Below are positions 1 through 59,062 of a stretch of DNA of 64,000 nucleotides, piece after piece. The position numbers and the translations under genes were made by a program. Position 1 is the first letter of the stretch, and every line of letters starts with the position of its first letter. This stretch comes from Nyssa sinensis (Eukaryota > Streptophyta > Magnoliopsida > Cornales > Nyssaceae), in contig CM018052.1 of assembly GCA_008638375.1 (NCBI GenBank), positions 297,001 through 361,000 of the forward strand, in the 5' to 3' direction. Below the pieces are notes generated by a model, which was given only the letters and a program-made list of their open reading frames with translations, did no database searches and had not been told where the DNA came from.

Positions 1-2808
1 GGTGGTGGGTGTGTGTAAGTGATATATGTATATATGTAAATATATATATGTATATGAGGTACGTGGGTGGCTAGGGATAAAAGGGCAGTTCTCTGCAGTC
101 AAGGATGACTGCAAGAGAGAAAGAGAGAGAGAGATAAGGTAGAGAGAGAAGAGGCGGTGGGTCTTTGTATATATATATATATATGCACGGGTTTGAGTGA
201 TGAGAGGTTAGAAAAGAGAAGGGAGAGTTAGGAACTGAAGGAGAGAAGAAGAAAGAAATATTGAAGCAGAAACAGAGAGGATTGGGAAGGTCACAGTGGG
301 CTAAAAACCGAAACCCAGGTAAGTGGTTTAGGTTCTGTTTTTATTATTTTTGAGCATGAAGCTTATATATGATTATAGGGTCTTAATAAGCATGGTATTA
401 GCTTTCAAATGAAAAAAGAATCGTGTTAAATGGTGTAGAAACCGTGGAGAAATATGGAGTTGCAGGTTGATGGAATAATCTCGGGTTCCATGAAATTGTG
501 TTTAAAACTTGGTTTTTATAATGAGAAATTGGTCCTCTATTACACAGGAAACATATAGGATAAAAATAGAGTAAAAACCGTGACTTAACAGTCACGAAAT
601 AGAGAAGGAAGACTCGGCCGGAGAAGCGGCCGGAGGTAAATAACTCCCTATTCGTGAAGATGGGGAGGGTTTTAAGGCAAGCCGAGGCTAGGGTCGAGGT
701 CCTTGAAGGGAAAGGAGTGGAATGGCATTGAAAAAGGGAGAGAAAATGATCGGATTTAGGTTGCCGTCACCGGAGATGGTGACGGAACCCTAAAGTTCTC
801 TCACCGGAGCTTGGGGAAGACGATCGGAAAATCGGGGAGTCTTCTGGGTTAAAAGGAACGGGTTTGGGTTTGAATCGGGTCGGGACCCGACCGGTTATAA
901 AAAGGGTAAGTTAAGCTGTGTCGTTTTGGGTTTGAAATTAAATGGATTTGGGCATGTTTGGTTACACGGATAATAAATGGGAAATGAGTTTGAGGTTATC
1001 CGAACCCTGGATAGGGATAGGAAATTAGGTTATTGGAATCCGGTTTTTCATATGAAGTGAACCGTTTGGTTCAGGGCAAGGACTGACCGGTTTAGGGTTT
1101 TTAGGTCTGAACCCACTGGTTCAGACCGCAGCTTTTAGTAATTGTGAACCGGCCCCAAATAGTTTGGAAAATTACACTGTTGCCCAAGTATAAAAAATTA
1201 ATTAAATATTAATTTTTCAATAATGCCCCTATTCCAAAAAGAGGTCAAACGAAGTCCAAAAGACACAAATGAATAGTCAAAACCTATTATCTCGGACGTT
1301 CTAAGTCCAATGGTGGGGTCCGTTTTACGAGACGGAACCCCGAAGGATAAAATACCGCAAAAGTGCAAAATGACTATTTTGCCCTTTTTAGTACAAAAGT
1401 CCAAATGGAATTCCGCGAAAGCCTAAACCGACTTTCTTCGGCGTTCCGGACACAATGGTAAAGTCTAAAAAAGTATTTGAAATACTTATGATAGAAAGGT
1501 ATAAAATTTGATGAATAACATTTATTCTGAAACGTATTCACTGATATATAGGGAACTCGAAAGGCAAGGGTACCTTCACGGATTTCTGAGTTAGAATCAC
1601 GATAGAGGTAAGTGGATCACTTTCTCTTCCATGTGGTGTTTCTAAAGCCAAGTTTATTCTCTTTACTGCCAAATTTGTACTCCTGAAAGTACTTCATGTT
1701 ATTGCTATCCACAGTACGATATTGTTCTATCTTGTGGACATTGATTGACTATTGTACTATTGTTATTGAAATGAACCCTGCCTTGGAAGGCTTACTGTTA
1801 TGCTTTACTGTATATATGATATTCCATTTTCATACTCCTTATGGAATCACAAATGATCATGCTATGTTTATAAATGCTGGAATTGTGCTCAGTCACAATA
1901 TCCATCCGATGCTTCTGTGACGAATTAGTCCGTGAACGGACATGTGGCAAAAGATGTGAGTTTAACTGAGAGGTATGCCGGGCCTCGAATTACGCAGAGG
2001 GGTTGCCATTCCCTACTACAGATTATAAGCATCTCCATTGGATTATTGTTATGGAAATATTGTTGAATGGTTACTGTTCCTTATGGATTACTGTTTCTTA
2101 TGGATTACTGTTTCTTATGGACTACTGTTTCTTATGGATTACCTTACATTGTTCATTGGTTTGATCGAAATCAATTTATTGTGGCAGTATTCTCATTGTG
2201 ATAGGTTATTGTTGAGAAAACTCTTATCACTGCTTATTCATTACTTCTGACTGTATATTGTGCCCCACTACTTATTGGCCATCATGGCAACTGTTCTCAT
2301 TGGCTATCACAGCATCTCCTTTCTTATGATTGGCTATCATATTTTATTCATGGATTCACGTTCTTTATAATCATCGATACCAGTGTCGGAGATCTGGTTT
2401 ACTTGCTGAGCTTCATAGCTCATTCCACCCCACTTACCCCCATTTCAGGTGATGACGCTGCGAGACCCCAGTAGGAGTCTGAGAGCGTAGGGGGACATTT
2501 TGAAGTACTGATCAGTCTATGTTAGTTCTCCCATGTATTCACCACCCTCGGGTGCTGGTTACGGTTTAGTTCTCATTTTGAATTTTGTAGAACTATGTCA
2601 TGTATTTAATAGACTTCCGCTGTTTAATGTATTTAAAAAGACTTCCGCTGGATTACTGTAACTGATAAATGACTTCCGCTGTTTATTGTTTTAAATTTTT
2701 AGTACATTGCATATTAGTACTATGATACAGGAACGGAAAAAGTAGGGACGGCCTTCGGGTCGGCCCCGCGACACGAGATCCGCATAGGATGGGTTTCGGG
2801 TCGTGACA
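1..2808 (+). mobile_element. Long LTR, copy A (5' end outside window)
   Basis: This is the 3' two thirds of a long Ty3/gypsy LTR. It ends at 2808 with GGGTTTCGGGTCGTGACA, the terminus shared with copies B, F and G. The order of parts matches B: purine-rich GA stretch (115-265), hairpin-forming GC block with a TATA-like box (878-906), two degenerate 140-bp modules (about 1294 and 1440), donor-like GTAAGT (1608) and acceptor-like TTTCAG (2443-2448). No primer-binding site follows position 2808, so it is a solo or 3' LTR. It interrupts another LTR that continues at 2809. It has no coding content: its open frames are short and not shared with the other copies. Confidence 0.85.
896..906 (+). promoter_or_regulatory. 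Candidate LTR TATA box, copy A
   Basis: TTATAAAAAGG follows directly after a GC-rich inverted repeat (GGTCGGG, one base, CCCGACC; 878-892). A TATA element next to a stem is plausible for LTR transcription. I have no transcript evidence, and the box is not obviously conserved in every copy. Confidence 0.3.
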
Positions 2809-3640: not shown

Positions 3641-4321
3641 GATAATTTTGTTGTTTAAATGATTTGGGAGCCGTATATGGTAGATGTCTTCACTGACTTG
3701 CCAAATTATTGCCTCCAAGGTCATGAGATATGGCTTGCCCGGGTGCCACTCATATACTTTTCTGTGGTTGAGTGGCATCTTCTAGATCGTGTATGGCGCC
3801 AGTTTGGTCTACTACAATCGATACCACTCGCATGTGATACTAGTCGGTTGCTGCATTCCACTAATAAGCGTGGAAGGTAAGGGTATGATTGGGAGACCCA
3901 TCACCGAGGATTACATTGAGATTTGGAGATAGCGTCGCAACAACATCATCACTAGAGCTTAGAGCACTGGCAGGATTGATGCGAGAGACCCCTACTTGCG
4001 ATGGTATAACACTATTACTCATAGACTCATCGGTCCTCCCATTCAGATACCACCATTTGGCTTCCAACCCTTGGGCAACATTAGAGAGTTGTTGGCATGC
4101 TCTTAATTGATGTTTATTTAGTTTATTAAATTTTTAGGCATTGAAGATTCATTGACGTACTATTTCTTTCACTTTTTTATAAGAGGATGCTATGACACGT
4201 ATCCACCAACTTTCGCTCCAAATCGAGCAAGGTGCTCTAGAGGCTACATCCCCGGGAGAGTTGATTCTTATAAACACCACACGATAGATTCAGGGGATGT
4301 CTTCCACTTTTTTAGAGGTTG
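3641..4321 (+). pseudogene. Plant mobile domain (MAIN-like / PP7-long-form-like) pseudogene, 5' fragment
   Basis: The reading from 3659 (IWEPYMVDVF, then WLARVPLIYFSVVEWH, RQFGLLQSIP and LHSTNKRGR) is typical of the plant mobile domain found in MAIN/MAIL proteins and in transposon-captured PP7-long-form genes. An in-frame TAA follows at about 3878. The homologous reading (YDWETHHR, YIEIW, then PPIQIPPFGFQPLGNIRELL) continues with stops and frame changes to about 4107. The left side is lost to an LTR. At 4321 the gene is split by solo LTR B and resumes at 8705. Family membership is recognised from motifs. It is certainly non-functional. Confidence 0.75.
4317..4321. repeat. Left target-site duplication of solo LTR B (GGTTG)
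   Basis: GGTTG precedes the LTR start and is repeated exactly at 8700-8704 after the LTR end. Removing the LTR and one copy rejoins the pseudogene sequence. Confidence 0.9.
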
Positions 4322-7300
4322 TGTAACACCCCGACCCGATTAAATGATAATTAAGTCACTAATTATTAATTAGTGACCTTAAAAAGGAATAGTTAAGAAA
4401 TTTAAATAGGAAATAGATGACGATTTCAAAGTAATTCCGAGACCTTAAAAATCAAGGTCGACTTCGGAAAAAATAAGATATGATTACGATTTATAAAATC
4501 GGTACATGAAAGAGTAAATATTTAATCACAAAGTGAAAAATAATGCAAAAAGTTAAAATAAATAAATTAAATGCCAAACAAGGCATAAGGGGGGAAAAAT
4601 AGCAAAAAATGGAACCAAAATGTGAGGCCAAGGGGTTTTGAACCCTTGACCCAAAATAGGCAAAATCTTAAAGCCCAAAAAGTAACCACTTGGGCTGCCC
4701 ACCTAATTGTGTCTTATATTGCAAATTATATGTATATATACATAAAATAACAAGGCCCCACCTCCCAAATTGCCCAATCACCTTTCATGAAACCAAAATA
4801 ACTATTTTAAAATTAAAATTAAATACAAATATATAGTTGTATGTTGCGTGTGCTGTGGGGACTCAAAAGGAAATCAAAAATCAGGTTAGTGTAAGTGTGT
4901 GCATGTGGGCGGCTAGAGAGAGAAAAGGGTAGAGTTAGAGAGAGAAGGTGAAGTAGAGATCTAGAGGGAGAGAATTGCAAGGAAAAGAGAGATCTGTTGA
5001 GTGGAAAGGGGAAGAAGAAGAGGAGAACAAGAAGAAAGAGGAAGAAGCAAAAAGGGGGAAGACACCACTAAGGTAAAACCCTCAAATCGAAATACCTTTT
5101 TCTCTTTCTAAAACAAAATCTCCCATTGGACACACTGTTTTATGATTTTCTTGGGCATGCATGGTCCTATCATGATGAAATAAACATTTTAGAAGTATAA
5201 TAGATGAGTTTGGGGGTTTAAAAATCAAAAACCATGAAGGTTCGCCATGGACAGACCACCAATGAAGCAGGTCTGAACCAACCACGGCCAAACGGAATTT
5301 GGCTTGTTGGAACCTCAAATAGAGGCCACAAGGGTTCTAAAAACCCTAGGTCGCAACCCAAAACCTCAAAATAAAGCCCTCAAAAACTTAGTTGCAGCCG
5401 CGGTTCAAAAGAGTCGACCCTCAAAATGGACACCAAACCTTATTTGTAGAATGTAGATCGAAGCTCCATAATCTAAGGATCAAAATAAGCCAAACATCAC
5501 TGATTTTGGTTGAAAAATGAAGGTGTATGATCCGATTATTCAGTCGCCCATCAAAGCTTGAATCAAGCTTTTGAGCTTGTTTCAAGCCATGAAATGAATG
5601 CCAAAATATTTACAAACCTTCCAGTAATGATTTAGAAACAAAAATAGTGAGAATCGATGGCTGAAATTCCACGAAATTGCAAAGAAAAATTTCTCTGCAA
5701 CTAGGGCTACAATACCCTACGTGATAAAGGAGACGACGAGTCGACCGAGTCGACTCGTCCAATTCGCTTAGGCTGAACGTATCGACTCAGACGCATGTCG
5801 AGTTGTGGGATGGCCACGGCATTAATGAAACGTCGTCGTTGGGTCAAAAGTTTTAAATTTAAAACAGTAAAGGGGCTGTTTGGTTACGGCCACAAAAAAT
5901 TAAAATTGGTTTGAAGATAGCCCAGACCGTGAATAAGGAGGATTAAAGGGGATATCGTATTTCGGTTCTCTGACTTAGCTAAACCAGTTGGTTCGAAAGT
6001 CAGTTAAGCTGGTCTAGGGTTTTGGTTATTAAACCCACTAGTCCAGGGACTTAATTGAAAGGAATTAAACCAAGACTTTAAATATTTACAGTTTGACCCC
6101 CTAACAATTTTACAGAATTGTATTCTGGCCCAAATTTTGAAAAACTAATGCAAATACACCCCTGAAAAAAATAAATAATTAATAAAATAATTTATTTAAT
6201 TATTTTATTAATTGGGTAAAATTACTATTTTACCCTCGCACACTAAATGAGTCAAACGAAGCCCAAATTAAATAAATGAATAGTATATTTTGACTATTTT
6301 GGACGTTCTGAACCCAATGGCGGGGTCCTTTTCCCTAGACAGGACTCCAAAAAGTTTAGACACGTTAATGTATAAATTACTAAAGTGCCCCTAATACAAT
6401 ACGAAGCCCAAATGAGGTCCAAATTGGACAAAATTGACATCAATAGAAGCCCAAATATTAGCGAGCTTGTATATATGATTAAATAATGATTCGGGGTCAG
6501 AACGTCATAAAATTTAAATGATCGATGTGTCCCTATGATCAAAAGCAGATACCTAAGGAAGTCCAAAAGACCTAAAGATTTACGTATAAGATATGTAAAA
6601 TATTCTGAGGACCATGATAGGTCCGGGGCAAGAAAAATAAATTACCATTTTGCCCCTACATATGCCCAAAGCCAAATAAAAAGCTGAGAAGGTCTAAATT
6701 GACTTTCTTCGACGTTTTGAATCCAACGGTGAGGTCCAAAATACCAAAATAGGTACTGAGAAATAAGTCACGCAAAAAATAAAAATTTATTAAATCACCA
6801 CAAGTAGACCGGTAAGACCAATCCTAGGAAATTAGGATACGTCAGGTGTAAGATTAAATGAAGAGCATCAATTAGAGATGATTCGAAGTAAATGAAGAAT
6901 TAATTGAAGTTTTGATGAATTTGATTTTTAGGAATTTCAAAGGGAAAGGGGAAGCCCACTAGTAGTGCTGACCCAAGAGAACAAGGTGAGTAATCCTGTA
7001 CTTTGACGTGGAGGTTTTAATCTCCATGGATTCTGAAGTGATTTGAAGTTCAATTATTCTGAAGTGTTTTTATGAAAATATCTGCTGTATTTTAAATTCT
7101 AAATTCTCGTATTTATATGCTTTATATTTCAATGTGCTATCGTTTTGTTTATAAATTCTAACATGGCATGCAAAATTCACTTCTTGATATCGCTGACAGT
7201 TGATACGTTTATTTTCTGCATGTCCATATAAATGTCAAATTTTATTAGATGCCTCCGAAAATAAATGCTTTTATTCCATCCATGCTTTAATAAATCCCTG

Positions 7301-8699
7301 TCCATCGTGATTAAATTCTTGAAGCCCATGTGTTAACTGTTTCAAGTATGGTCCTCCAAGTATTTAAGAAACTCTGTTAAACTGTTTATGCTTTAAATAC
7401 TCATGAAAATTCACCATTTTTATCGAAGCCATATTTTTATACTCATGAGAAGCATCTATTTGAAAATCATATTTCAAACACTCATGAAAAGCTTATATTT
7501 GAAGAAATTATGTTTTCAATGCTCATGAAAAGCATTATTTGAAGAAGCCATAATTTGATGCTCTTTGAAAAGCATCCAATGAAGAAGTCATGTTTTTAAA
7601 TGTTAAAAAAAAAAAAAACATTTCATGAAGAAGTCACGTTTTTGCAAGATAATGATGTATAAGCATCGCAAATTATTGAGCTCCCATCGGGTTCTCAATT
7701 CAGAATAATGCCCGGTAGCAGGATCTGATCCCTCAGGCATGAGATCTCCCAGAAGTAAAATTAGGGTCTAGTTCGAAACGGATCCTTGAGTTAAAAAGTG
7801 AAAAGATGAAAAGGTTTTTAGAAATGGTAGCAGGTTTTAAAACCCCATTATCTGAAACGGGTTTTTATATAACCCTTTGAAGTTTTGAAGAAGAAGAAAT
7901 TGCATCCTCCTATTTTCATGGAAATGATTTCAAATTATTTCTTTGGCTTCAAATAGCCACTCTGCACATGTTTATAAATTATGTTGCATATTAAATGCTT
8001 TATTGAATGCTTTAAAAATGCATCATGCTATGTGATTTGAAGAATTCTTGTATTCTGCGATCATTGGAATACGTGCCTAGCTTGAATGCCTTGTATGCTT
8101 CACGTTATCTTTTTGAAGAATTCTGTCTTCTGTATCTGAAGTATATGTACAATTAGTAGTGTATGTTTATATGAACCTTCTCTTATACCTAACCCACTAC
8201 TAGTTGAAACCCATGACAAAGTACTGGAATTACTCATTGGGCTTTTCGAAGCTCACCCCATTCCCTAAAATTTTTCAAGTGATGATGGTGGTTGGGAGCC
8301 TTGCCCAATTTGAGGATTGGTGATTAGTAGCTCCATTTGATCAAGAATTTTGGAAGTACTAGGACCGGTAGTTGGTCAAATTTTGATGTAGTAAATTTTG
8401 GACAAATATGTACTTAAGCCCGAGAGGCAACGGATATGTAAAATTTATAACTTTAAATTTTTAGTATGCTCTGCATGTATATAATTTGTTTACCGCTCCG
8501 AAGAAGAAGAAGAAGCAACGGAACCGAGCGGCCGTGCGAAATGAAAAAGTTTTTCACGCTTCCGCAATTTGCCAGTCCTGGCCCTTTCGCACAGCCATTC
8601 AGCGCCGCTGCTTACTCGAGCATGACCCGAAGGCCCACGGGCCGGAGGGGGGGTGGTCGCGGTTCGGGATCCGCAGAGGCTGAGTTTCGGGTCGTGACA
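4322..8699 (+). mobile_element. Solo LTR, copy B (4378 bp)
   Basis: It starts TGTAACACCCCGACCC and ends TTTCGGGTCGTGACA, and is flanked by the direct repeat GGTTG (4317-4321 and 8700-8704). That is the TG..CA plus 5-bp duplication signature of LTR-retrotransposon integrase. No coding region, primer site or second LTR is present, so this is a solo LTR left by recombination. Inner parts in order: palindrome (4355-4377), tRNA-like A/B boxes on the minus strand (about 4628-4712), GA-rich tract (4915-5060), 25-nt hairpin (5735-5759), AT palindrome (about 6166-6215), 140-bp modules (6301, 6711), and an intron-like unit (6986-8279). It splits the mobile-domain pseudogene. Confidence 0.93.
4355..4377. 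repeat. Perfect palindrome near the 5' end of LTR B
   Basis: GTCACTAATTA, one T, then TAATTAGTGAC: an 11-bp perfect inverted repeat 33 bases inside the LTR. Copy E has only a degenerate version at the matching place (about 47868-47905). Confidence 0.8.
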
Positions 8700-29403: not shown

Positions 29404-29420
29404 GCTACTCCCCCCCAAAG
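29404..29420 (-). other. Polypurine tract of the Tat element
   Basis: On the minus strand, GCTTTGGGGGGGAGTAGC lies directly before the 3' LTR start, the expected place for plus-strand priming. Confidence 0.65.
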
Positions 29421-29948
29421 CCTGAGTCCTGAATCATGCGTGCAGGACTGAGGTTAGGGTTTCTATAGTTTGCAAAAAGTCATGTGCACGCGCATTTTAA
29501 TAAGCGGTTTGTTCGGTATTTCGAGGAGGCGTCAGCCGTCATGGCAGATTTTAATGCACAGACCGTCGTTTCGAGAATCGAAGCTATTCATTACGCCAGC
29601 CGTTTTATTTCGATTTTCTCAAGATTTTTTGAAATGTTTCGGTTCCCGGTTTCGTGAAATCATAAAAAGAAAACGTTTATTTTGCTAGAAATCCGGATGA
29701 TCTTTAGTACAAGAACTATTTACACCTCTCAAAACAGTTTCAACATATTTTTCGAGTGTAACCTCCAGTGAACTTTAGGACGGTTTCTGGCGACGGTGAT
29801 CGGACATTTGAAACGTGTGACCGGTAACTTCCTTATTTCTCGTGCTGTTTTTCTCTTCGTCGTTTTATTCCTGGTTCTGGCTCTGTTTTTGGTTTCATTG
29901 TTTGTTATTCTTCTTTCTGGTATCTCGCAATTTCTTTGTATGTTGATC

Positions 29949-38452: not shown

Positions 38453-38455
38453 AGC

Positions 38456-43171: not shown

Positions 43172-46100
43172 TGTCACGCCCCAAAACCCACCCTATGCGG
43201 ATCTCGAGGACGTGATGCCAGTTAGCCACCTTGTCAGTTTTCCCCACCGACAATGCGACCAACCAAAGGCAACTTCTAAACTTTACAATGAATTGCATTC
43301 TAAATGTAGGGTCAAAACAACAGAAGTTAAAACCTTTTTAAATTGAAAATGCAACTCATCCACATGCATCAGAGCACGTCTAAAATCAGTCACCAAATAT
43401 CTTTAAAGTATAATGTACATGCTCCAATGCATCCATTCTATATCAATGAATTACTTAAAGCAGAAGTTACACCAATACAATTCAGCTAATTAAACTCATC
43501 ACCAATGATCAACAATCAGAACATCTCCAAGTACCGCTTAATCATAATGATCTGACATACTAGGCTAACCTCATCACCAATGATGTAATGTTATAATACA
43601 TAACTTCAAAGTTGACCTTACAGTGTTTGGTTCGATCTTTGACTTGGAGTTCATATCGTTAGTGTCAATCGTTGTGCATCACTAGTCCCACTAGTTATCT
43701 CATTTCAGTTCATCCCATATAATGTCACTTGAAAAATGTTAGATAAATGGAATGAGCTTAAACAAGCTTAGTAAGTAAATTCCTAGCTTTGCCATGGGTC
43801 AGGGTTAGTTCACAAGAAAAATGGAAGAAAGGGATAATAGATAACCAATAGCCAAAAGAGTAACAAGAAATACATAGCTAGTCACCAAGATGCGTAACAA
43901 TGACCCGAGGGTCCAAAAGGCTTATCCCAAAATAAGATACAAGAAGATAATAATAATGAATCCAACAACCGGGATCTAGCCAATCATGATAATCTGCTGC
44001 CACAACAAATACGATAGCCAATCAAAAGCATAACATGCTTGCATAGAATATGATCATCCAACGAGTACCAAAGATATATCATCATCGAGTAAAGTATAAC
44101 ATGATCGCAATTGTATGATCATTCACAGGGCATAGAATATGATCATTCAACGAATACCGAAGATATATCATCATCGAATACTAACAACCCAGAATGCATG
44201 AATCACCCGGGGCCCGGCATACCCCACTAAAACGCATGCTCAGATCCGCCACAGTTCCTCAGGCTCTCTGAAAAGCGTTAGAGCTCTTTTCTCGCAAGTC
44301 CCGTAGGACACAACAGACCCCAAATGGTCCTTCTCCCACGCAATTCTGTGAATAGATGGGCCGTTGTGACTGAGCACAACCCCAAGCACATATAAAATAT
44401 CATGATCATGCTACTCTTCATAGGAACAAGGATGTGGATCGTAGCTAGTCAGTTCGAGGAAACATAATATAACCATAGCTTCACCCACTATGTTACTGGG
44501 CTGCCGAGAACATAACCCGTTCAAGGCAACAATATATAACTATAGCTTTTTACAGCTATGTTACTAGGCTGCCGAGGACAACCATGTCTCAATCAACGAT
44601 GCACAAGTGTATAGAACAAACAAGATTTTCAACAACAGATATATTACAAGATCATGACACGATATACAGGATGGTATAAACATGCTCAAGCATTGACAAG
44701 TCAAGATCGCAAAATGATATAAGCAAGCAAGTCGAACCCAAAGCACAAGCATGAACAAATAATCACAAGTCGATTCCCATCAATCAAGGAGATCAAGTTC
44801 ATTGGGTAATCACAAGTAGATTGGCATCAATCAAGAGTTCAGGTTCATTAGGTAGGAAATGGAGTACAAGTTTGGCAGCATATGCAAATAAATGTGACTG
44901 GTTGAGGAAAGGCCCCACAACAAAGTTCAGATTTACTTACCTTGGTTTCTTAGTGTTAGATTCTCCATTTACAAATACTCTGATAATCTCCAGATACTTT
45001 AGGCATATCCTTGTATAGCTTGAATAATCATCATTAATTACAAACAGATCAGAATTCATTCATTCATGTTTTATTCATTATCTTAGGAGTCTATCAGATG
45101 GCCTAATTAAGTTCATTGGCCTATTACCCACTTATTAGGTTTCAACTTATGTCATTAAATTCCTTAAATAGGCTTAGCAGCTGTCTGAATAATATTTTAA
45201 GTCATTTCGACTACAGTCGTTATCAATTAAGCACTTATTTGCCCTCAGGGGCAAAATGGTAATTTTGTCATTCTTGCCTCGGACCCTATCATAGTCCTCA
45301 GAATAGTCCACATATCGTATATATAAATGTTTGAGTCTTTTGGACTTCATTTGGTATCTGCTTTTGATCATCGGGACACATTGCTCATTTTTGGTTTTAT
45401 ACGTTGAGTGTTCCGGAGTCATATTTAGCCTTTCGATTTTCATAATTATACTTATGACAATTTATTAGACCAGATTGGCCTTTATTCGACCTCTACTTTG
45501 CACTTACCATGCTTAGGGGTATTTTGGTCACTTTATGTTTTGTGAAACTCTAACCCCGATTCATCATTTAACCATGTATACAGTTTCACAAGTATCTGGG
45601 CTTCTATCGGTATCAATTTCGTCCCAATCGGACTTTATTTAGACATTAGGGGCATTTTGGTAATTTCACATGCCATAGCTAAATTTTTGGGACTTCAGTT
45701 CATAAAATGGACCTCACCATTAGGTCCAGAGTGTCCGACATAGTTGAATTGGACTATCCTTTATGTTTAATTGGCCCTGGGTATCATTAGGGGTAGTACA
45801 GTCATTTACCATTTGAGTGTCTTTATTTTTTGGGTCTTGATTTCATAAATCAGACTTTACCGTTGAGTCCAGAATGCCGGAAATAGTAAAAATACATTAT
45901 TTATTTATTTAATTTGAATTTCATTTGATTTAATTAATGCCCAATGGTAATATGGTAATTTTATCCAATTAATAAAATAATTATTTTATTATTTATTTAT
46001 TTTTCCGGGGGCCTATTTAAATTTATTTTTCAAAATCTAGGCCAGAGTACGAATAGTCAAAGCTGTTGGGTCAAAACGTAATTTTGGCTAAATATGTAAT

Positions 46101-47374
46101 GCTGATGTCAGGCTGACGTCAGCCCTAATATAAAATTTAAAAATCCCTTTGATTAAACGACATAGTTTCGATTAAAACGGTTTAACCGTTTCTCGGTCGG
46201 GTCGGGGCCCGAACCGTTTGTTTTAAGCCGATACCCGACCCTTTACTGTTCATCGTCTTCCCCAAGATGGTGAACAGTAACCCTAAAAACTGAGATTTTC
46301 AAAGCTAATTTCGTGGGTTTTTGGCATTCGATTCTCACTGTTCTCATCTCTAAACCGTTACTGGGTGGTTTGAAAGTGTTTTGGCATTAATTTTGTGCCT
46401 CGAATCAAGCTCGAGGAGCTACGGTGATGGGGGAAATAGTCGCAACCTGCAACTGGCTCGTAAATGGTCGTTTAAACACCATTTTGAGCGTGGTTTGGTT
46501 CGTTGTGACCGTCGTGGAAAGGGGATTCGATCCCCATTCTAAAAACAGGGAACATGGGTTTATTCTAGAGGTTGGGTCTTAGACCCGTGACCTGCAAGTC
46601 GTGTTTTGGGGGTCATTCTTTAAGCTTTTAGGTCGCGGCTTATGGTTTTTGAAGCTCTCAGAGGGTCTAGTGTAGGGATCGACCAACCAAAATTGGTTTG
46701 GCCTTGATGGTTTCAGACCTGCAATTCCGAGGTCCAACCATGGCTGTTGCATACGGGTTTTAGGGTTCTAGGTCATTTCAGTGGTCCAGTTTCATGCCTC
46801 ATTTCAAATTTCTCATCTTAGGTATCATGCATGCAATTTAATAAGCTCAAATCATTAAAACTACATAAAAATTTAACCCAAGAAAATAAGGCAGTTTGAG
46901 GTTTATTCCTCTTGACAGTGGGTTCCTCTCTCTATGGCTCGACCCTGTCCTCCCTTCAAGCTCTCCCAAGGTTGCTCAATCCTTCTCCTTGTGTACTTGA
47001 GTGGACACTGACACATATGCATGCACACTTGAACAAACACACACACAAGTTCTCTCTTTCTCTCTCTACCCTCCCTCTAGTTTCTCTCTCTAAACTCTCT
47101 TCATCAGATCAACATTCATGCACACACAGTATCTGAACTCACACACAGACTTGAGGTGTCTTAGTTGATGGGTTGACTTATACACTCACTCTCACCCATA
47201 TAATTGTACACCTACATATACTTACACATCTATTCATGTAGGCACATCAAGGGCTGAGATGTATTCATGTGGCTGATCAGGATGATGTGGGCTGATGTCG
47301 GAGTGGAGATGGAATGATGAGGGGTTTGCATGAAATGTGATTGGTTGCTTTGGGAGGTGGAGGGGCTAATTTGG

Positions 47375-47405
<31 letters not shown>

Positions 47406-47927
47406 TTCATTGTATAATAGAGCACAAAAGTGCTGGCAGCCAAGTTGGTTAAAACTTTTAAATAAAATTACTTTTCTCCTTAGGTCAAGGGTTCAAATCC
47501 CCTTGGCCTCACATTTTGACATTTTTCTCATTTTGGGCATTAGGCCTTGTTTGGTTGCGCAGAATTTCGTTTTCACTGTTTCCTTCGTAACTTCTTTTCT
47601 GTTACTCTTTTTTCGACGCGGTTTCTTCCGAAGGTTTCGTATTTTAGTTAGCTTCAATGTCAAGGGCCCCACGTCATTTATTATTTATTTGGAATTTCCA
47701 TAGTTAGCTAATTCGAGTTCCGTCCGTGTTAAAACAACGTCGTTCCACCTAATTAATCAGTAATCAGGTTTGGGCATCACACCCTCTTCTCCAGATATGT
47801 TTAATCATTTTATTTGTCTATCGTGACCGTCGAGAGATTATGATTAATCTCTTTAATCATTCTTTATGTCAGTGCTAATTTATAATTAGCCAACTAATTA
47901 TTAATTACGCAGGATCGGGGTGTTACA
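43172..47927 (-). mobile_element. Solo LTR, copy E (4756 bp), inserted in D
   Basis: On the minus strand it begins TGTAACACCCCGATCC (47927) and ends GGGGCGTGACA (43172). ATAGG lies on both sides (43167-43171 and 47928-47932). It is a complete LTR with no internal region. Inner features: tRNA-like boxes (47430-47511), TGACGTCA-type motif (46105-46125), AT palindrome (45930-46010), 140-bp modules (45287, 45716, 45860), and an intron-like unit 43738-44940. Confidence 0.93.
47430..47511 (+). other. tRNA-like A and B boxes inside LTR E
   Basis: TGGCAGCCAAGTTGGTTA resembles a pol III A box, and 55-60 bases later GGGTTCAAATCCCC resembles a B box and T arm. It lies on the strand opposite to the LTR sense, as in copy B (about 4712 down to 4628). 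It does not fold as a full tRNA that I can verify. Confidence 0.5.
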
Positions 47928-48196: not shown

Positions 48197-51100
48197 TGTC
48201 ACGACCCGAAACCCACCCTACGCGGATTACCGGATCGTGACCGCCGCCCCGAGACCCGAAGGCCTCGAGACAAGGCTCATACATAAGCAACAATATTAGA
48301 CAGCGATGCGACCTGTGGTTGCGGAAGCGTGAAAAACTTTTTTTCTTTTCTTTTTAAATAAAACATCTGCCGCATATCCGTCTGATACTGCCGCTCTTCA
48401 TAGCGGTACACATAAAGATAATAATCAGAGCATAATAATAATAACTAAAGGTTCTACATAGTACATATCCATATGCCCCTCGGGCTTAAGTACATCATTG
48501 TCCAAAATTTCCATTACAAAAGCTTGATTGATAATAGGTCCTACTACTACCAAAATATCTCCAAGGACCTATTGGAGTTGCTATTCACTGCTCCCCAAAT
48601 TGAGCAAGTGTCCAGCCTTGATCATCACCTGAAAAATGTTAGGGAGTGGGGTGAGCTTCGAAAAGCCCAATGAGTAATTCCTACATCTGTCATGGGTTTT
48701 CAATTGGTAGAGGTTTCGTATATGAGAATTTATAAAATACTCAACTACCAATTGGTCGTATACTTGAACATAGAGAACATGCATTCTTAAAATATGTAGC
48801 TTTGAAACATTCAAGGTATTCAAGCTAGAACATATATTTCCATAAAAGAGTATGTGGATTTCAGAACATATAACTTAAAATCATGTAAACATGTATAGTG
48901 AAAATGGGGGATAAAACCTGCTTCCATTTCCAAAATCGTTTGTCATATTTTCTCTCTAATTAGGTGGAATCTGTTTCGAACCAGACTCCCATTTTACGTA
49001 TACGTGGAGATATCTCATTTGCTTGGGGGATTAGATCCTGCTACCAGACATTACACATGACAGGTCAATTGAGTTCCGTATGACCCAAAATCCTGACTAT
49101 GTGTTGATGCACATGATAGGCCCATTGAGTTCCGTACAACTCACAACACTACCTATGTACTTATTATTTATCTTGCAAAACATTTGTCATATGACTTTTA
49201 TATAAAAGCCTTTCATGAGTATTTAAAACATGTGACGTATAACTCTTGCAGTGATGCTTCAATACTTGCAGTAATCAAATTTAGAGTATTTGAGGAATTA
49301 GACATGCTAACTATTTTCAAAAGGAAAACATTTATGGATATAAATATATAAATAATTGTGAAGCATGTCATGGCAGAATATTTAAGGAAACAGAAATCAT
49401 GAATACTGAATTTGATATATCAATGCTGTAAATATTTTGAACTTAAAAACATCCATTGAAATCCGTGGAGTTAAAGCCTCCACTTCAAATGTAAGATTAC
49501 TCACCTTGGTCCTTTAGGGTTAGTGCTAATAATGCGCTTTCCCACTTCCTTTGTAGTTCCTAAGAACAATTCATAAATATCCTCATTAACTTCACATTCA
49601 TTTCAAACATCTCCTACTGATGCTTTTTAGCTTATGCTTAGATCGTATTAGATCCTAACACGATTTCATAAATTTCTTACGCACTCATTCTTAACCTATG
49701 ACACATCTTAATGTATTAGGAATTAAGTTTATTTTATTTTATACTCTTCTGGGAGTTCCATTAACTTTAACTTAAGGTTATTGACTTCACATAATTACGT
49801 GTCGTGTGTTTTCGTATTTCTTTGCCTTAGTTTAGTACTTTGGCAATATTTCAGTTCATAGTCATCTAACAGATGCTATTCATCAAATTTTGTCTTTTTA
49901 TTTTAGACATTTCTTTTGGTCAAATAGACTCTACCATTGAGTCCGGAGTGTCCAAGAAAGTCGGTTTAGGCTTTCGTAGAATTTAATTCGGGCTTTTGCA
50001 TGTAAAAGGGTAGAATGGTCATTTATCGTTTTACGTGTCATATTTTTCCATACTTCGTTTCGTAATTTGGACTCCATTATTGAGTCTGGGATGCCAAAGA
50101 AAGTCAATTTAGATCTTCCTTGGTTTTAATTTGGCTTTCGGTGTACTAGGGGTAATTTGGTCATTTTACCCCCCTTACGTGTCTTTATTTTTTGGGACTT
50201 CATCTCGTGTCATGGACCTCACCATTGGGCTCAGAAGGTCCGAGATAGTAAGATTACACCAATAACTTGTTAATTTTGGTCAAGGGGTATTTTGGTAATT
50301 TATACCTTAACGTGTCTAAATTTTTTCAGAGTCCCGCCTCGTGAAACGGATCCCACCATTAGATTCAGAATGTTTGTAATAGTTAGAATCCACTATTTAT
50401 TTATTTTATTTGGACCTCGTTTGGCTTATTTATGGGGCAGGGGCATTTTGGTCATTTTGACATTCTTTAGGGGTCTTTAATTTTTCAGGACCTCATCTCA
50501 TGTTGTGGACCTCACCAATGGACTCAGAGGGTCCAAGATAGTAAGGTTACATATATAACTTGTAATTTTTGGTCAAGGGGTATTTTGGTCATTTACCCCT
50601 TTATGTGTTTTTATTTTTTTCGGGTCCCGTCTCGTAAAACGGACCCTATCATTGGCTTCAGAATATCCGAAATAATAAGGATATACTATTCATATGTTTA
50701 ATTTGGACTTTATTTGCTTAATATTTGAATTAGGGGCATAATAGTCATTTTACTTTATTTATTAAATAATTAAATTAATTTTTTTAATTATTTAATTATT
50801 TTCCAGGGGTCAAATTGAATAAGTTTTCCCTTAGTTGGGCCCCAGTAGAATTTCTTAGAAAGTTTGGGGTCAATCCGTAAATAAGAAAAGATTTGGTTTA
50901 TTTAATTTTTAATTAAATTATAAAACCAATGGGTTCGGTCCAAATTCAAGTGAACCGGTCTGGTTCACCTACAAACCAACCGGTTTAACCGGTTTGCCAT
51001 GTAATGCTGACGTCATGATGACGTCAGCCCTAATGGTTAAAATTAAAAATTTTGAAACCTCTAAACGTCACCGTTTCAATAAACCCATAACCGGATTTGA

Positions 51101-52113
51101 CCCGAACCAGTAACCGCCCGGTAGACCGACCCGACCCGAACAGTGTCGTCTTCCTCATCGAAGCCGACACTGTTCACTCAAAACCCTAATTATTTTCAGT
51201 CGCTATTTCTTCAATTTCGTGGAGTTTTATTCACCAAATCTTCACTGTTTTTATCATAAATTATTCCTAAACCATAAACGATCATTTTGGCATCCTTTTT
51301 AGGCATCAAACTGGTCCAACGAGCTCGGTTCAAGCCTTGATAATCCGACCTGCAAGTCGGTTGTATACGCTCATTTCTGAGCCAAATTCGATGAGGCTTG
51401 TCCTGTTGTGGTCCCCTTTTCATGGGGCTTCACCTTCCATTCATCAAAGTGGAATTAATCTCATATTTTTGAACTTTGTTTCTGGAACCCGAACCTATAA
51501 TTCGATATTTGGGCTTCGATTCTTTTGAGTTTTGGTCGCGGTCATAGGTCTTTGGCATGTTTGTGGAGTCTAGTTGAGGTCTTGATGACCAAAACCTGAT
51601 TTGGTTGCCATTGGTTCAGACCTGCTTGGGCAAGGTCCTCCAATGGCTGCTTTACGTGGGTTTCTATTTTCCTGGGGTTTTTGAGGTCAAATTTCATGCT
51701 TGGTTAAGTCTAGACACATCTTAAACATCATATATACATAAATCATGGCTTAAACAGTTTATAAATATGTAAAACTCTAGAGAGAGAAAATATTAAGATT
51801 TTGTGGTTTTTACCTTCCTAAGTTGATTCCTTCTCCCTTCACTACTGGTTTCCTTCCTTCTTCTTCTTCTCAGACTTCTCTTTTTCTCTCTTTCTTTGCT
51901 TGGACAAATGGTGTGTGTGTGTGATGTATGAGATGTGCATATGTATTCATGACAAATGCTTGATCATTGTCCTTTTTGATTTTCCCACCTACTGGTTTAC
52001 CTTGTGGCAGCTTCCATGTTCAATTTTCTTTTACTGTTTTGGGGCAGTGGTGAGCAGGCCATCCTGGCCGGTTGCATGTGTGTGTGGTGTCTTAGGTTTT
52101 GTTTTGTATAAGC

Positions 52114-52144
<31 letters not shown>

Positions 52145-52529
52145 TACCAACACATTTGAAGACACACACACACTTCATTGCACTTTGGATATTAGGATGC
52201 CCCCACTTCACTTATGAAATTTTTATATATTTACACATATACACATATTTTGACATGCATGCATGCATACACACACTCATATATATATATATTCATGTAT
52301 AATTATATATATATATATATATATTTTTAAGGTTACAAATATTTATATAGTATATATTTTTGCATTTAATTATATATATATATATGTATGTTACAATTTA
52401 CTTCTTATATTAAAATAATTAATTACTTTAAAATTAATTATTTTCTTAAATGTATCATCTTTGTACTAATCTTTCATATCCTCGTAATACGTGTCACATT
52501 ACCCGACATTCTCGGGTCGGGGTATTACA
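48197..52529 (-). mobile_element. Solo LTR, copy F (4333 bp), inserted in D
   Basis: On the minus strand it begins TGTAATACCCCGACCCG (52529) and ends GGGTTTCGGGTCGTGACA (48197). AACAC is duplicated at 48192-48196 and 52530-52534. It contains six 140-bp modules (49930-50680), an AT palindrome (50750-50806), a perfect GCTGACGTCA/TGACGTCAGC inverted repeat (51006-51028), and an intron-like unit 48629-49504. No coding content. Confidence 0.94.
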
Positions 52530-52534: not shown

Positions 52535-54890
52535 TCCATGAAATAGAAGATTAAAAATTCAGCAAAGTAGGGCAACATTGCGTGGGGTGAGGAAGACAAT
52601 GAACAGGAAAAGGGTCGGGTCTAGGGTCAGTTCGGGTTTGGGTCGAGACCTGTCCCATTGCGTAATGGGTTTAGTGGAACAGCACCGTTTAAGTATTTGG
52701 GTATTAAATTAAAAGCTGAATAGCCTTGTTTGGCTATATAGATAAAAATCAGATTTAATAACCCTGTTCTGAACAGGGATACCCTATCTACGTTTAAGAC
52801 CTTATCCCCTGTTTGGTTTTTGAATAATAAAGAAAAAAGAAGAAAACTGTAGTCAGTGGGTTTCGAACCCCTGACGTGTGCGTGTGTGTGGACCCTAACC
52901 CCATGTGTGAACCACTGTGCCACTGAGGCCCTTGGTTAAAATAGGACCTGAATAAATATATAATATAAAATAAAATAATTAAATTAATTTAAATTTGCAA
53001 AATATTCTCGGTGTCCGAATAAAATAAAAAGGCAGTGTGACCCAACATTTTTGGGCATTCCGGACTCAATGGTGGAGTCCAAATTGTAAAATAAAATCTC
53101 AAAATATTTGAACAAATAAATTGGGCTAATCCCAAAAATGTCCTAAAGGCCAAATGAAGATACTGAACGACCTCCAAAAATTATAAGAATATGTACCTCA
53201 AAGTTTTTCGACGTTTCGGACTCAACGGTAGAGTTCGTTTTGCCAAATAAAATACTTAAAATATTGTTATACGAAATGGACTATTTTTAGGACATCGTAA
53301 TACTACAGCGATATGACCAAGAGGGGGAGTAAATGGATCTATAGACTTAAAATACGACATAGGAGATTGAAAGATTGTAGATTTATTAATAAAATAAGAT
53401 TAAGTTTGTGAATAAATATTGAACTTAATAATACTTCCTGGTTTATAGGGACATCGAAAGGGAAGGAAAAAGAAGTTTGATTTCCTATGGAAGGGAGGAA
53501 GGACTATTTTGAGCTAAGTAAACCCAAACTCTAACATGTGGTAATTCCTAGCCATGTCACAGTTTTATTTTTTCGATGCTGCCAATTTGTATTCCATACA
53601 TACCTAACCATTGTTGATTCTCACAATTTGATGCTTATTTTACCTTGTGGATTTGTTGAGAATTTGATTGCCAATATCCTAATGTGATTACTTATTCATT
53701 TCTATACTTTTCTTGGATATTAGAAATTTTCTATGCCCCTCACTGCTGAGAATTTGTTATTTCGCAAATACGTACATCGCTTGTGAAATTTTGATGGTCA
53801 TGATATTATTATGAGTGCCTGGAGTTGTGATATGTCACAACGTCCATTTGATTCATAGATGCTTTTGGACCTATGGGTCCGTGATTGGGAATGAAACCCA
53901 ACACTTAGTCCATGAAGGACATGATATGTGATAAAAAGCTCTAGTGCTATTCAGGAGCCCGATAGTGGAGTGAACCTGGATGAGCGCTTATGGGGGTAAG
54001 TTGGGCCCTATTTGTGACAACATCTATTCTGTTAGTATCTTATATCGTTTATTGATATTTTGATGATGCACTCTTGGATTATTGGTATGTCTTGCAAGCC
54101 TATCTTTGGATTATTTGACGATGTACTCTTTGGATATTGATATGCCTTGTGAGCCTATCCTTGGATTATCTATTGATACTATTTGGTTGATGATATGTTT
54201 GCTTGCTTATCCTTGGACTCGAATTACTATCTTGTGATTTGTGGCAGCTAACTTTTGTATAGGCCAATCCCTGTTGTTGATTTGCTTATTCTACCTTGGG
54301 ATGTTCCTTTTGGACTTACGGGTCATTTCTATTGATTCACACTTTTGATGACTAGCTATTGTGACATTGTATCCCTTGTTCACTATTGTGATATCATATC
54401 CTTATTTGCTATTGTTCATATCATTCTTTTTGGACTAACCTTAACCCATGGCAGAGTGAGGGAATTTACTTACTGAGCTAAGTTAGTTCACTCTAGTTAT
54501 GTCACTTTTTTCAAGACAACGAACTGTAGAAGAACCATCAAGTGTACACATTGAGTAGACACCCCATTTTGCTATAGATTATCCTTTTGCAAGTATGCTG
54601 GATGCTTTTGCTGTCAATGTAATAGACTAAGTGTAGTGTAGTCTTAGTTCTCCCATGTGTTCACGTCTTCGGTATGTTTTTATATTTTAAGGATCTGTAA
54701 CTAAACACTTATTTTTATTTTAACATGTACAATTATACTCTGATGATGGTATTAGGTTAGCTAATGACATGGCATACAATTAATGATTATTTAATTAGTG
54801 TTTGAGATCCTTTGGTAGGGGACAGTTTACAGGCCGTTGCCCCCGATCACCGGCCTTTGATCCGCACACGGCGGGTTATGGGTCATGACA
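52535..54890 (+). mobile_element. 5' LTR, copy D, segment 3 (LTR end)
   Basis: The last part of D, ending GGGTTATGGGTCATGACA at 54890, immediately followed by a primer-binding site. That identifies D as a 5' LTR. Two 140-bp modules (53050, 53211) are present. The intron-like donor is damaged (CTAAGTAA at 53514-53521), and the acceptor-side hairpin and TTTTTTCAAG (54475-54514) remain. Confidence 0.87.
52840..52935 (-). mobile_element. tRNA-derived SINE-like insertion in D
   Basis: On the minus strand TGGCACAGTGG (A box, 52922-52912) is followed 40-50 bases later by GGTTCGAAACC (B box, 52869-52859). Both are near canonical. A T-rich stretch (TTTTCTTCTTTTTTCTTTATT) follows, read in the same direction. 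This fits a short tRNA-derived SINE. Ends and target duplication were not resolved. Confidence 0.5.
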
Positions 54891-54894
54891 GGCG

Positions 54895-54907
54895 TGGTAT
54901 TAGAGCC
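54895..54907 (+). other. Primer-binding site after LTR D, tRNA-iMet type
   Basis: TGGTATTAGAGCC matches the iMet primer site TGGTATCAGAGCC with one C-to-T change. It lies four bases after the LTR end, establishing orientation (+) and LTR identity for the whole family. Confidence 0.85.
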
Positions 54908-55066
54908 CAAGGTTTTAGTGGTTCATGGGAGATTAGGACTAGAGTACTAAGACTTGTTGAGTCTAAGGGTCAATTATTAAGTAAAATATGTCATAGTGAT
55001 TAAGTGATTACTTGACTGCTAAATAATGTTCTTTTACAATAAATGGTCTGTACCCGTAGTACCGCC

Positions 55067-56240
55067 ATGGAGTCAGAACAACTAGACAGAGTAGAGCGCA
55101 TATTAGAGAGGATTGTGGAGGCTCTGCCCAGCCCCTATAGGGGTGGGAATGAACCAGGGTGGCAAGATCGTACTGGCATCCGTGGAGGCCGATAGGGACC
55201 AGTCATACCTATATAAGCGATTTCAGGATCTGAAGTCATCGACGTTTGATGGCATGGGAGGCCTCACAATAGTTGAGGAATGGCTGTTAAAAATGAACAG
55301 GATCTTTTAGATCATGACTTGTACCGAAGAGTAGAAAATGACTTATGCCACATACATATTTAAGGGAGCGGCTTATAAGTGGTGCCTACTACAAGAAGCC
55401 TGAGAGCCCAATATAAGCTGGCAGCGATTCATAGAAGTCTTCAATGAGAAGTACTTCCCCCAAGAGGCAAGGGATTAGAAGATTGTCGAGTTTTTAGTCC
55501 TTCAGCAAGGGGGTATGACATTGGATGAGTATGAGGCCAAGTTCACTAAGTTGGCTAGGTTTTCCCCTAATGTTATCAATACGAAAAACCTGAAGGCTCG
55601 CAAGTTTGAAGGAGGTTTGAGGTAGGCCATCAAAGACAGAATTAGGCCCTAGTGACTAGCCACTTTCAATGAAGTAGTGGCGATGACAAGGATTATAGAG
55701 CGTAGTGGGGAGGAGTATGCAAAGAGAAAAGGGAACCAGAGGTCAAGTTGTAGTAGAGACAGAGGACGAGGATCCTTACTCTTCAAGCCAGGTGCTAGCT
55801 CACGCAGTACAGGGACATGGCGTAGCCAGAGAAAGGCCAACCATAACAATAGGGGCGTACCTAAATGCCCCACTTGCCAGAGATTCCACAAGGGACAATG
55901 CCATAAGAACACCAATGCTTGTTTTAGCTTTGGCCAGACTGGAAATTTTATGAGGGATTGTCCCAAGAGTGGCAGGACTATGATTAGTTCTGCACTTGCC
56001 ACACCAGCCTCTGTTCCACGAACTCAGAGAAAAAATGAAGGACCAAGGAATGACCAGCAAAGCTCGGGAAGAGTCTTCTCCATCACACCGGGGGATGTTT
56101 AGGCTATTACCGTAGTGGTCTTAGGTACCTTTTCAGTTTGTTCCCAACCTACACATGTACTATTTGATATTGGTTCTACATATTCATTCACGTGCCCCAC
56201 ATTTTTTGCTAAGTAGAACTTAGACGTTGAACCCCTAGAC
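55067..56240 (+). pseudogene. Ty3/gypsy gag and protease start of element D, broken
   Basis: It starts ATGGAGTCAGAACAACTAG. After a frameshift the retrotransposon-gag domain is readable: FDGMGGLTIVEEWLLKMNRIF, TYATYIFKGAAYKWC, FIEVFNEKYFPQEARD, MTLDEYEAKFTKLARF. A basic Arg/Ser stretch and a CCHC knuckle follow (CFSFGQTGNFMRDCP, about 55918; the second Cys is Ser-like shifted). The protease start FDIGSTYSF (usually FDSGASHSF) lies near 56160. Stops occur at about 55309, 55332, 55402, 55479, 55624 and 56100. The reading ends near 56240, and no RT or integrase follows. Confidence 0.78.
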
Positions 56241-56256
56241 AAGATATATTCATTCA

Positions 56257-56371: not shown

Positions 56372-59062
56372 TGTCACGACCCGAAACCCACCCTATGCGA
56401 ATTTCGTGTCGTGGGGCCGACCCAATGGCCGTCCCTAATTTTTTCCTTTTTGTATCAATGACAACATTATATAATGTAACTTATTAGTAGATTAGCGAAA
56501 GTCTTAATACAAAATATTGTTTAACAACTGAAAACTAACATAAACATAACATGCAACCACTCTTAGGTGGTGAGTACATGGGAGAGACTCTATTCACTTC
56601 TATCATGCTCCTTAACTGTCTTTCTAAGCTCCTGAACTCCTATTGTGGTTCCGCAGCATCCTTACCTTAAAAATAGTAAGTTGGGGTGAGCTAACAAAGC
56701 TCAGTAAGTAAAAGCTTATCTCCAATACGGGTTAGGGTTAACATAGAAACATATGAACTCAACAGGTAACATGGTAGCCAACCATGGAAACAGTTGCAAT
56801 TAACGAAAAAATGCCACAATGGCCAATGAACAGTAAGGCACAATGAACAAGTATAAGTAATGGTCTAGCATGAATATGGGAAAAGCTCAATAATCACAGT
56901 CAACATAAATATACTGCCACAATAATTCGGTCACAGTCAAATCTAATAAATAAGGAACTATCAGCAAAGAATTATTCATAAGGAAATGAAGACATCCTAT
57001 GAATTCAATAACGTCAATCATAATAGTCAAACTTGAGTGATGCATTTACTCTGTTCAGGGTTTGGCAGACCCTCGGTCTTTTGGGGGCCCAGCATACCCC
57101 CCATTAACATGAATGCATATAAAATGCCCTTTTTACTCACTACATAAAAATTCCATCATTGCAATGTGTCCATTCATGGACTCGACCCATAGGTTCCATT
57201 AATCGACCCATAGGTCCTGTCAATCAGATAGTATCGGAAGGAAATTGTGATTGAGCATAAAATTTGGCATTTATCACAAATCAGGATTCTATCATAATTC
57301 CATAAGAAGTGCATAAAGCATGGAATATCATGCAGTAACATATAATGATTGGCCTTTCAAGGCCCAGTACAACAAAGTAATCATGAGATAACAATTAATA
57401 AGCATCCACCAGATGAGACAATATCGATGGTGGGACAATAACAATGGGTACATACATGAGTACAAACTTTTGATAGTAATAGAAAGAATGGGGCTTGAAA
57501 AACCATGTATAAGAGATAGGATTTTACTTACCTTTAGTTCGTACGATCTGCTTTAGTATTTCGTAACCTTCTCTTTTCCCTTTAACTTGCCTATACATCA
57601 ATAAACACGTCTCAGTTCTAATGTCATTTATCAAATTATACACCTCATTAATCTAAGTATCTCTTTTACTAATTTAGACTCCACCATTAAGTCTGGGACA
57701 TCGAAGAAAATTAGTTTAGGCTTTCATGGTTTCCAATTTCGATTTCTTTACTAAAAAGGGCAAAATAGTCATTTTACATGTCTGTATTTTTTTGGGTTCT
57801 GTTTTCACAAGTCAGACTTCACCGTTGAGTCTAGAAGGTTTGAAATAATAAAATTTCACTATTTACTTAATCCAATTGGAGTCCGTTTGACTCACATTTG
57901 ACTCAGGGTTATTTTGGTTATTTTGGCATTTCTACGGGTATTTTATTTTTTGGGACTCCGTCTCATGAAATGGACCTCACCATTGGGTTTAGAAGGTCCA
58001 AGATAATAAATTTACACTATTCATTTACTTTAATCGGAGTTCGTTTGACTTATTTTTGACTTAAGCATATTTTAGTAATTTTCCCTATTTCTAATTAATT
58101 AAATTAAAATTTAATTAATTATTCCTTGGGTCATTTCATAATAAATCATAAATCTAGGGTCCAATTACAATTTCATTAAGCTTTAGGCCAAATCAGAATT
58201 TTAGAAACTACTATTCCAATTTGGAATAGCCAAACAGTGGACAACCTATGGAATAGGGATAGGATATCCCAATTCCAATTTCAATCCCCATCCAATTTAT
58301 TATCTTCATAACCAAACATCCCTATTCCAATTTAAATACAACATCAAAATGGTGCAGCTTGAATACCCATACATGCGGGTGGGTCGGGTCTGACCTGACC
58401 CGAACTAACCCAAGCCCAATGCCCATGTGTGAAGCTGCACTGTGTCTTCTCCGACCGTGCGCCGGTCACCTTGTCCGGCGCCGAAATATTTTTTCGGCGA
58501 TGTTTCAACACCTAATCAACGGGTTCCTCTTCTACTCCTCATGGGCATTTTATATCCACCCTCGGAATTGAATTTCCGTCACCGGAAGGCCTTGAAAAAG
58601 GGAGTTGCAGCCAACTCCAGCGAGCTGCCAGATTTTCCGGTGAGCTGCATTTTTTCCTATTTTGTGGCTTTTTAGCCATTGTTTTGACCCCAATTTTTTC
58701 CTACATGGTGCTGAACCTATGGGCAATAATTCCCCATTCATAAAACGAGCTAAATTGATAAAAAATCCAATGATTCATAATTATCCTTCAACCTTCAACT
58801 TGGTTTTTCTCACTCATTTCTTCACCAAATGGGCTGCAGTTTCTTCCTAAATTTACAATTTTTCATGCTCTTTAAAACCATTAAGCTTAGACATGCTTTC
58901 ATGGAAGTTCATAAAAAACCCATAAAATTTAAAACTTGAAATACAGTAAATTTTCAAACCTTCTTTGGTTGGTTTTTCTCTTCTTCTTCCTATGTTTCTC
59001 CCTTCTGAATACCCCAGAGTCCTTTAGCTTCTATTATTTCCTTCAATTTATGCACTTGGTGC

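Follow-up and report, generated by a model that had tools for sequence, protein, structure and literature searches.

Seven long terminal repeats (LTRs) of one diverged family lie in a 64,000-nucleotide stretch of the Nyssa sinensis genome (contig CM018052.1, positions 297,001 to 361,000; hereafter the window), and in each of them (copies A, B, D, E, F, G and H) a segment resembling a 5' splice site, or donor, is complementary to a second segment further downstream, its partner. We tentatively propose, giving the idea somewhat less than an even chance, that the donor opens an intron lying within the LTR, that the first bases of this intron pair with the partner just before its 3' splice site, and that the resulting stem would mask the donor and restrain splicing. 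The segments are as follows, in window coordinates:

1608..1618, + strand: donor of A, GTAAGTGGATC
2396..2406, + strand: partner of A, GGTTTACTTGC, pairing with the use of wobbles
6986..6994, + strand: donor of B, GTGAGTAAT, 5' splice-site-like
8229..8237, + strand: partner of B, ATTACTCAT
53514..53522, + strand: donor of D, mutated to CTAAGTAAA
54465..54473, + strand: partner of D, TTTACTTAC
44931..44940, - strand: donor of E, GTAAGTAAAT
43771..43780, - strand: partner of E, ATTTACTTAC
49496..49504, - strand: donor of F, GTGAGTAAT
48670..48678, - strand: partner of F, ATTACTCAT
57522..57531, - strand: donor of G, GTAAGTAAAA
56704..56713, - strand: partner of G, TTTTACTTAC
62171..62179, - strand: donor of H, GTGAGTAAC
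60688..60696, - strand: partner of H, GTTACTCAC

All 14 segments, which the initial annotation had described as complementary pairs, matched in position and strand when re-read. Numbered in LTR sense from the first intron base (+1), the pairing runs over +1 to +10 in E and G (10 Watson-Crick pairs) and over +1 to +9 in H (nine Watson-Crick pairs); B and F also pair over +1 to +9, with eight Watson-Crick pairs plus one G-U at +1, and A pairs over +1 to +12, with 12 pairs including four wobbles. The register in D is +2 to +9, and the GT of its donor is mutated, since +1 is C. The last base of the exon adds at most a possible G-U wobble, in six of the seven copies. When pairing in this register was scored at 1,139 to 2,006 sites downstream in the same LTR, no other site equalled the partner in B, E, F, G and H; two sites matched it in A and three in D. 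Judged by duplex energy, sites at least as good as the partner numbered two in E, five in D and 17 in A, with none in B, F, G and H. When the partner was shifted by 1-8 bases, the summed score, 62 in register, did not exceed 38, and among permutations of the seven copies the copies' own pairing was reached in 20/5,040 by score and 44/5,040 by energy, fractions that are not probabilities because the copies are related.

Relatives of A, E, F and H were gathered from the 1.0-Gb assembly with these copies as queries (B, D and G have no relatives from a query of their own); a first look gave 3,767 to 5,076 candidates per query, of which the best 40 per query were scored. Window copies excluded, the scored relatives were 96-98% identical to the query for F, 98-100% for A, 90-93% for E and 97-98% for H. 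Among relatives with both segments, 26/28 of the F type keep GTGAGTAAT/ATTACTCAT, 28/29 of the A type keep GTAAGTGGA/TTTACTTGC, 9/10 of the E type keep GTAAGTAAA/TTTACTTAC and 6/6 of the H type keep GTGAGTAAC/GTTACTCAC; because these are nearest relatives, the counts characterise the individual subfamilies and are not a measure of covariation. Besides the window's own locus, 28 of 29 F-query loci gave both segments of F type, the exception being L029, with a pair of G type. Pairs were not taken from nested neighbours belonging to a different subfamily, and one cross-element row (L056) was left out of the 104 donor/partner pairs and of the permutation counts that follow.

The two segments vary jointly. 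Across the 104 pairs, donor +3 and the base facing it form a Watson-Crick pair in 103 cases and a wobble in one. Where +3 is G, the partner reads TACTCAC or TACTCAT in all rows but one, and not TACTTAC, which would resemble U1 small nuclear RNA (snRNA); we therefore rejected a U1 mimic that ignores its donor, as the partner changes along with donor +3. A prospective sample was picked by the partner side alone, with the donor then placed by BLAST homology; the queries contained the donor and the threshold was lax, with weak matches (22-31 bits) at L079, L083 and L084, so that placement was not fully blind. Partners with a non-T facing +8 gave 34 matches, of which 20 were fetched and 13 had a donor; +3 agrees in all 13, and +8 is not compensated. 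The word TTACTTAC before a GGGC hairpin gave 52 matches (seven fetched, four with a donor; +3 agrees in three and is a wobble in one), and TTACTCAC before a GAGC hairpin gave 1,307 (eight fetched, six with a donor; +3 agrees in 6/6). Left out of these counts were, in the first set, four loci with only a GTRAGT word (L082 and L096 agree at +3, L078 has a wobble, L088 a mismatch) and three donorless loci; in the second, three of the seven loci, which have no homologous donor; and in the third, L106 (a weak candidate TTAAGT, which would mismatch) and L107 (none). The L104 donor in this last set was shifted by one base to GT.

Among 26 distinct combinations, none of 100,000 permutations reached the score of the donors with their own partners over +1 to +10, 1/100,000 reached it at +3 and 327/100,000 over +7 to +10; when permutation was confined to +3 classes, 1,975/100,000 reached it over +7 to +10 and 1,067/100,000 over +9 to +10, all of these being statistics that ignore relatedness. 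Position +9 shows six A-T, five T-A and eight C-G combinations (19 paired) and seven unpaired, and +8 is paired in 13/26, 13 of the 30 rows having been selected for a non-T there. At L102, whose best BLAST match is E, the donor run is longer by one A and an A of the partner is replaced by T, which together give 12 Watson-Crick pairs. Trees built from the flanks require a minimum of 3-4 changes of the +3 state; independent pairs switch together in 3/3 cases on the exon-flank tree and in 2.8/3 on average on the partner-flank tree (p 0.25-0.5). Although two trees, one built from the 700 nt that precede the donor and one from the sequence following the hairpin, place E and H as sisters, the two copies carry GTAAGTAAAT/ATTTACTTAC and GTGAGTAAC/GTTACTCAC, respectively. 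It had been claimed at the outset that donor differences at +3 and at the last one or two positions are matched by the partner; this holds at +3 and largely at +9, and fails at +10, where only 4/26 combinations form a Watson-Crick pair. Independent variation of the two segments at +3, looked for in the larger set, did not occur (Watson-Crick in 22/23 prospective loci, a wobble in one). The further step from compensatory change to a selected stem stands as far as the association goes; compensation is partial, and there are only three independent switch pairs. As an association, then, the covariation is real; as a sign of selection it is suggestive. The locus L098 (B-type exon, GTAAGTAAT/ATTACTTAC), considered as a decisive co-switch, was downgraded to suggestive because exact B-type donors comprise 11 with A at +3 against 231 with G at +3, and 10 of those 11 have no partner of the GGGC-hairpin pattern.

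Around both segments, the features of a spliceosomal intron (donor, branch-like word, acceptor and T-rich body) are found at the level of sequence; in naming these words we assume the usual splice-site and branch-site consensus. The donor has the form GTRAGT in 101/104 rows. Upstream of it, between an AG and the donor, all seven copies have a T-poor, mini-exon-like segment of 54-78 nt, with 13-30% T against 34-43% in the intron; the bounding AG (TATAG, TTTAG, CTTAG, TTCAG or TCAAG) was picked by hand in each copy. A further upstream intron and mini-exon may therefore lie within the LTR. Donor and partner are separated by 0.6-1.5 kb of T-richer sequence, which in H (61028-62182) includes tandem repeats, some of them about 55 bp long. 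Directly after the partner comes a conserved hairpin, TGRGC..GCTCA, whose 3' arm holds CTCAY or TTCAC. In most rows this word precedes the AG by 20-26 nt; in many rows a second branch-like word, CTAAC, stands merely 10-12 nt before the AG. An acceptor-like T-run and AG are present in 27/30 window and pattern rows, and the better acceptor candidate is the one downstream of the partner; in the seven window copies, 38-43 nt separate the partner from the end of this AG. Subfamily A (donor GTAAGTGG) has in addition a second complement of the donor, CCACTTACC, in 28/31 A-type rows, the cross-element row included. An Rfam search gave no match at the gathering score, and a search of viral contigs for relatives with one pattern likewise gave none. 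The positions of these features are:

6932..6985, + strand: likely T-poor exon of B, 54 nt, between TTTTTAG and GTGAGT (13.0% T; intron 36.3%)
1552-1607: T-poor segment of A
53449-53513: T-poor segment of D
44941-45018: T-poor segment of E
49505-49559: T-poor segment of F
57532-57590: T-poor segment of G
62180-62252: T-poor segment of H
8238..8255, + strand: hairpin TGGGC..GCTCA of B, abutting the partner, its 3' arm with a branch-site-like CTCAC 24 nt before the AG
8270..8279, + strand: 3' splice-site-like ATTTTTCAAG of B (TTTTTCAG in many relatives)
2430..2438, + strand: second complement of A, CCACTTACC, 3' of the hairpin, with nine Watson-Crick pairs to donor -1 to +8

If the LTR is transcribed through this region, a stem running from +1 to about +9 would cover the bases read by U1 snRNA, and with the partner abutting a hairpin whose 3' arm holds the branch-site-like CTCAY, the start and the end of the intron would be locked together. 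Partial masking would keep unspliced RNA as the genome and let some RNA be spliced for other use, perhaps translation from a shortened leader. In retroviral replication the LTRs are reconstructed from the terminal parts of the RNA, and a spliced leader would delete an LTR intron; spliced RNA would likely fail to regenerate this intron, because it lies inside the LTR. Retroelements in general must keep part of their RNA unspliced, and an intron wholly within the LTR would pose this problem more sharply, as a spliced template is expected to erase the intron. A donor clamped to the other end of its intron would, if true, be a simple cis-acting answer, and the many diverged copies in one genome offer a natural covariation experiment. 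We hold it possible, with considerable doubt, that this is a self-masking LTR intron in a fuller sense, an intron that persists through retrotransposition because clamped, unspliced RNA alone serves as the genome, whose donor has its own intramolecular mimic of U1 beside the branch site, and whose stem has been re-tuned between subfamilies, including the second partner of A.

Predicted energetics are in part consistent with such masking. Compared with a duplex computed for unmodified U1, the partner duplex is equal or greater in strength in 20/34 rows and falls short by no more than 2.0 kcal/mol in nine. The stem in register is present in the cofold minimum in 28/34 rows; for window A and one A relative, the cofold places the donor on the second site 3' of the hairpin. 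In folds of the whole intron the mean stem probability exceeds 0.5 in 4/7 window copies, compared with 3/21 folds with shuffled middles, and it does so in 13/24 folds of a second set, made without shuffles, which comprised 10 E relatives, six H relatives, seven pattern loci and, with its flanks shortened, window A. In window copies A, E and H the stem has a probability of 0.000-0.052 (0.55 for A in the second set).

These low values are among several results that weigh against a selected, donor-masking stem. The whole-intron probability is also low in all six H relatives (0.02-0.21) and in 5/10 E relatives (0.03-0.33); the partner duplex is weaker than that of U1 by 2.3-4.4 kcal/mol in 5/34 rows; the register stem is missing from 6/34 cofolds, and the hairpin does not form beside the stem in every other cofold, for example in B. 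Compensation fails at +9 (C facing A) in L105, L108 and L111, at +8 (A facing C) in L077, L086 and L091, loci selected for that feature, and at +8 to +10 in L083, L084 and L094; L099 has a G-U at +3 and an unpaired +9. The acceptor AG is absent in L077, L083 and L109. There are only about three independent A/G switches (sign test p 0.25), and significance is therefore out of reach; inheritance of the intron as a linked block could explain much of the joint variation. A third tree, built from the 120 nt surrounding the partner, places H with B and F and not with E, and L094 is a mosaic whose exon groups with H and whose intron start and partner flank are like those of L083 and L084; this conflict and this mosaic suggest that introns or intron ends may have been exchanged by recombination. 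Finally, three exact junction patterns for an intron-less LTR, of A, F and H, had no match in the genome, which is expected if only unspliced RNA is copied and fits equally an intron that is never spliced.

Much of this would follow if there were no selected stem at all, a rather improbable alternative to our mind, in which GTRAGTAA is an ordinary donor, TTACTYAC is kept for some other reason and the two words are inherited together within each subfamily. The few independent switches, the uncompensated mismatches at +8 to +10 and the grouping of the H partner surroundings with B and F all speak for it, as do the B-type donors with A at +3 mentioned above, 10/11 of which have no partner in reach (in a search for one exact partner and hairpin form), and one B-type donor with G at +3 (C6) that has such a partner, among the first 100 of 231 listed. 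It accounts less well for complementarity in register, supported by the slide and permutation controls, for pairing at +9 to +10 above that of shuffles even within +3 classes, or for donors and partners that differ in a matched way between E and L102. Alternatively, and in our estimate unlikely, the stem might promote splicing by looping out a long intron and bringing the donor next to the acceptor, with U1 displacing the stem. Regardless of intron length, the distance from the end of the partner to the acceptor-like AG is indeed 38-44 nt in most rows, and among H relatives the distance from donor to partner varies from 1,248 to 1,402 nt with both segments unchanged. However, the pairing lies on the U1 site itself, not beside it, and would compete with U1; we favour masking over bridging because the stem sits on that site and beside the branch-like word. 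A local DNA cruciform was judged unlikely, since the segments are 0.6-1.5 kb apart.

Two further alternatives draw on other retroelements. Pairing between the partner in the 3' LTR and the donor-like segment, which would lie close to the RNA 5' end, might cyclise the genome and aid strand transfer, for which the CYC5:CYC3 pair of Ty1, a 14-nt perfect complement, would be a precedent (PMC5454406). With both segments in each LTR such 5'-to-3' pairing is possible; the GTRAGT form of the donor and the T-poor, exon-like segment beside it are not required by cyclisation, and we regard this as quite improbable. Slightly more improbable still would be control of polyadenylation, in which a putative poly(A) site in the 5' LTR is silenced by U1 bound to the donor and the stem keeps U1 away in the 3' LTR. 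As in foamy viruses (PMC3694450), a donor-like word precedes the end of the LTR, but both LTRs of an element would have the same donor and partner.

The proposed masking of the donor has parallels in several known systems, of which the donors of HIV-1 and of foamy viruses come closest. The splice-donor (SD) hairpin of HIV-1 is a repressive RNA structure that masks the leader 5' splice site from U1 in a virus that needs unspliced RNA, and covariation support was sought for it as well (PMC4974535). Masking from U1 (predicted here) and the need for unspliced RNA are shared; the HIV-1 hairpin is local and lies in the leader (PMC4974535), whereas in the plant element 0.6-1.5 kb separate the donor from its partner, which is close to the likely 3' splice site, both segments being in the LTR. 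The major splice donor of foamy viruses likewise lies within the LTR, with RNA structure governing the access of U1, although that structure is local and serves the choice of poly(A) site (PMC3694450). Ty1 shares long-range complementary words in LTR-retrotransposon RNA; its pair joins the 5' region to the 3' untranslated region and, in what its report states there, is not described as a splice site (PMC5454406). BARE1, Ogre, CRR, Bagy2 and EVADE are plant LTR elements that separate the roles of their RNA by splicing, and the BARE1 intron is T-rich, as here; their introns, where stated, lie in or between coding parts (PMC3735527, PMC12786077), whereas the whole intron proposed here would lie in the LTR. 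Splice-site structures in a plant intron have been described for tomato HsfA2 (PMC8824230). Judged by title and opening of the abstract, none of the papers listed in literature searches of limited coverage deals with an intron within a plant LTR or with pairing of its donor to a partner there.

The seven copies share pairwise recognisable stretches that are about 57-81% identical, and the family is putatively plant Ty3/gypsy and chromovirus-like. Three of them (B, E and F) have TGTAA...TGACA ends and perfect 5-bp target-site duplications (TSDs); the 5' end of the LTR was searched for within the window in A, D, G and H and not found. Profile searches with short LTR pieces gave no further clear family copy in the window. 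The names primer-binding site and zinc knuckle for the words 3' of the D LTR are our assumption; a Pfam search of two frames there gave no gag match.

4322..8699, + strand: copy B, complete solo LTR, 4,378 bp, ends TGTAACACCCCG...CGGGTCGTGACA, TSD GGTTG
43172..47927, - strand: copy E, complete solo LTR, 4,756 bp, TSD CCTAT
48197..52529, - strand: copy F, complete solo LTR, 4,333 bp, TSD GTGTT
54890..56251, + strand: end of the D LTR, then a primer-site-like TGGTATTAGAGCC and a degraded gag-like region with zinc-knuckle remains

A 121-bp piece (56252-56372) that is 93% identical to the D LTR (54223-54343) stops at the 3' terminus of G, which would fit an insertion of G into a second D-type LTR. 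Elsewhere in the genome, subfamilies A and F show pairs of LTR matches on the same strand 5-6 kb apart (for example C4:29959495 and 29964667), which suggests short, perhaps non-autonomous elements. The window also holds a young Ty3/gypsy-type element at 28810-39049 (- strand), with 594-bp flanking repeats that are 98% identical and frames for gag, reverse transcriptase and RNaseH-integrase, remains of a Copia-type pol at 19759-22434 (+ strand; Pol_BBD, SH3_retrovirus and RVT_2), and a tandem pair of direct repeats of about 450 bp, 71% identical, at 11186-12080.

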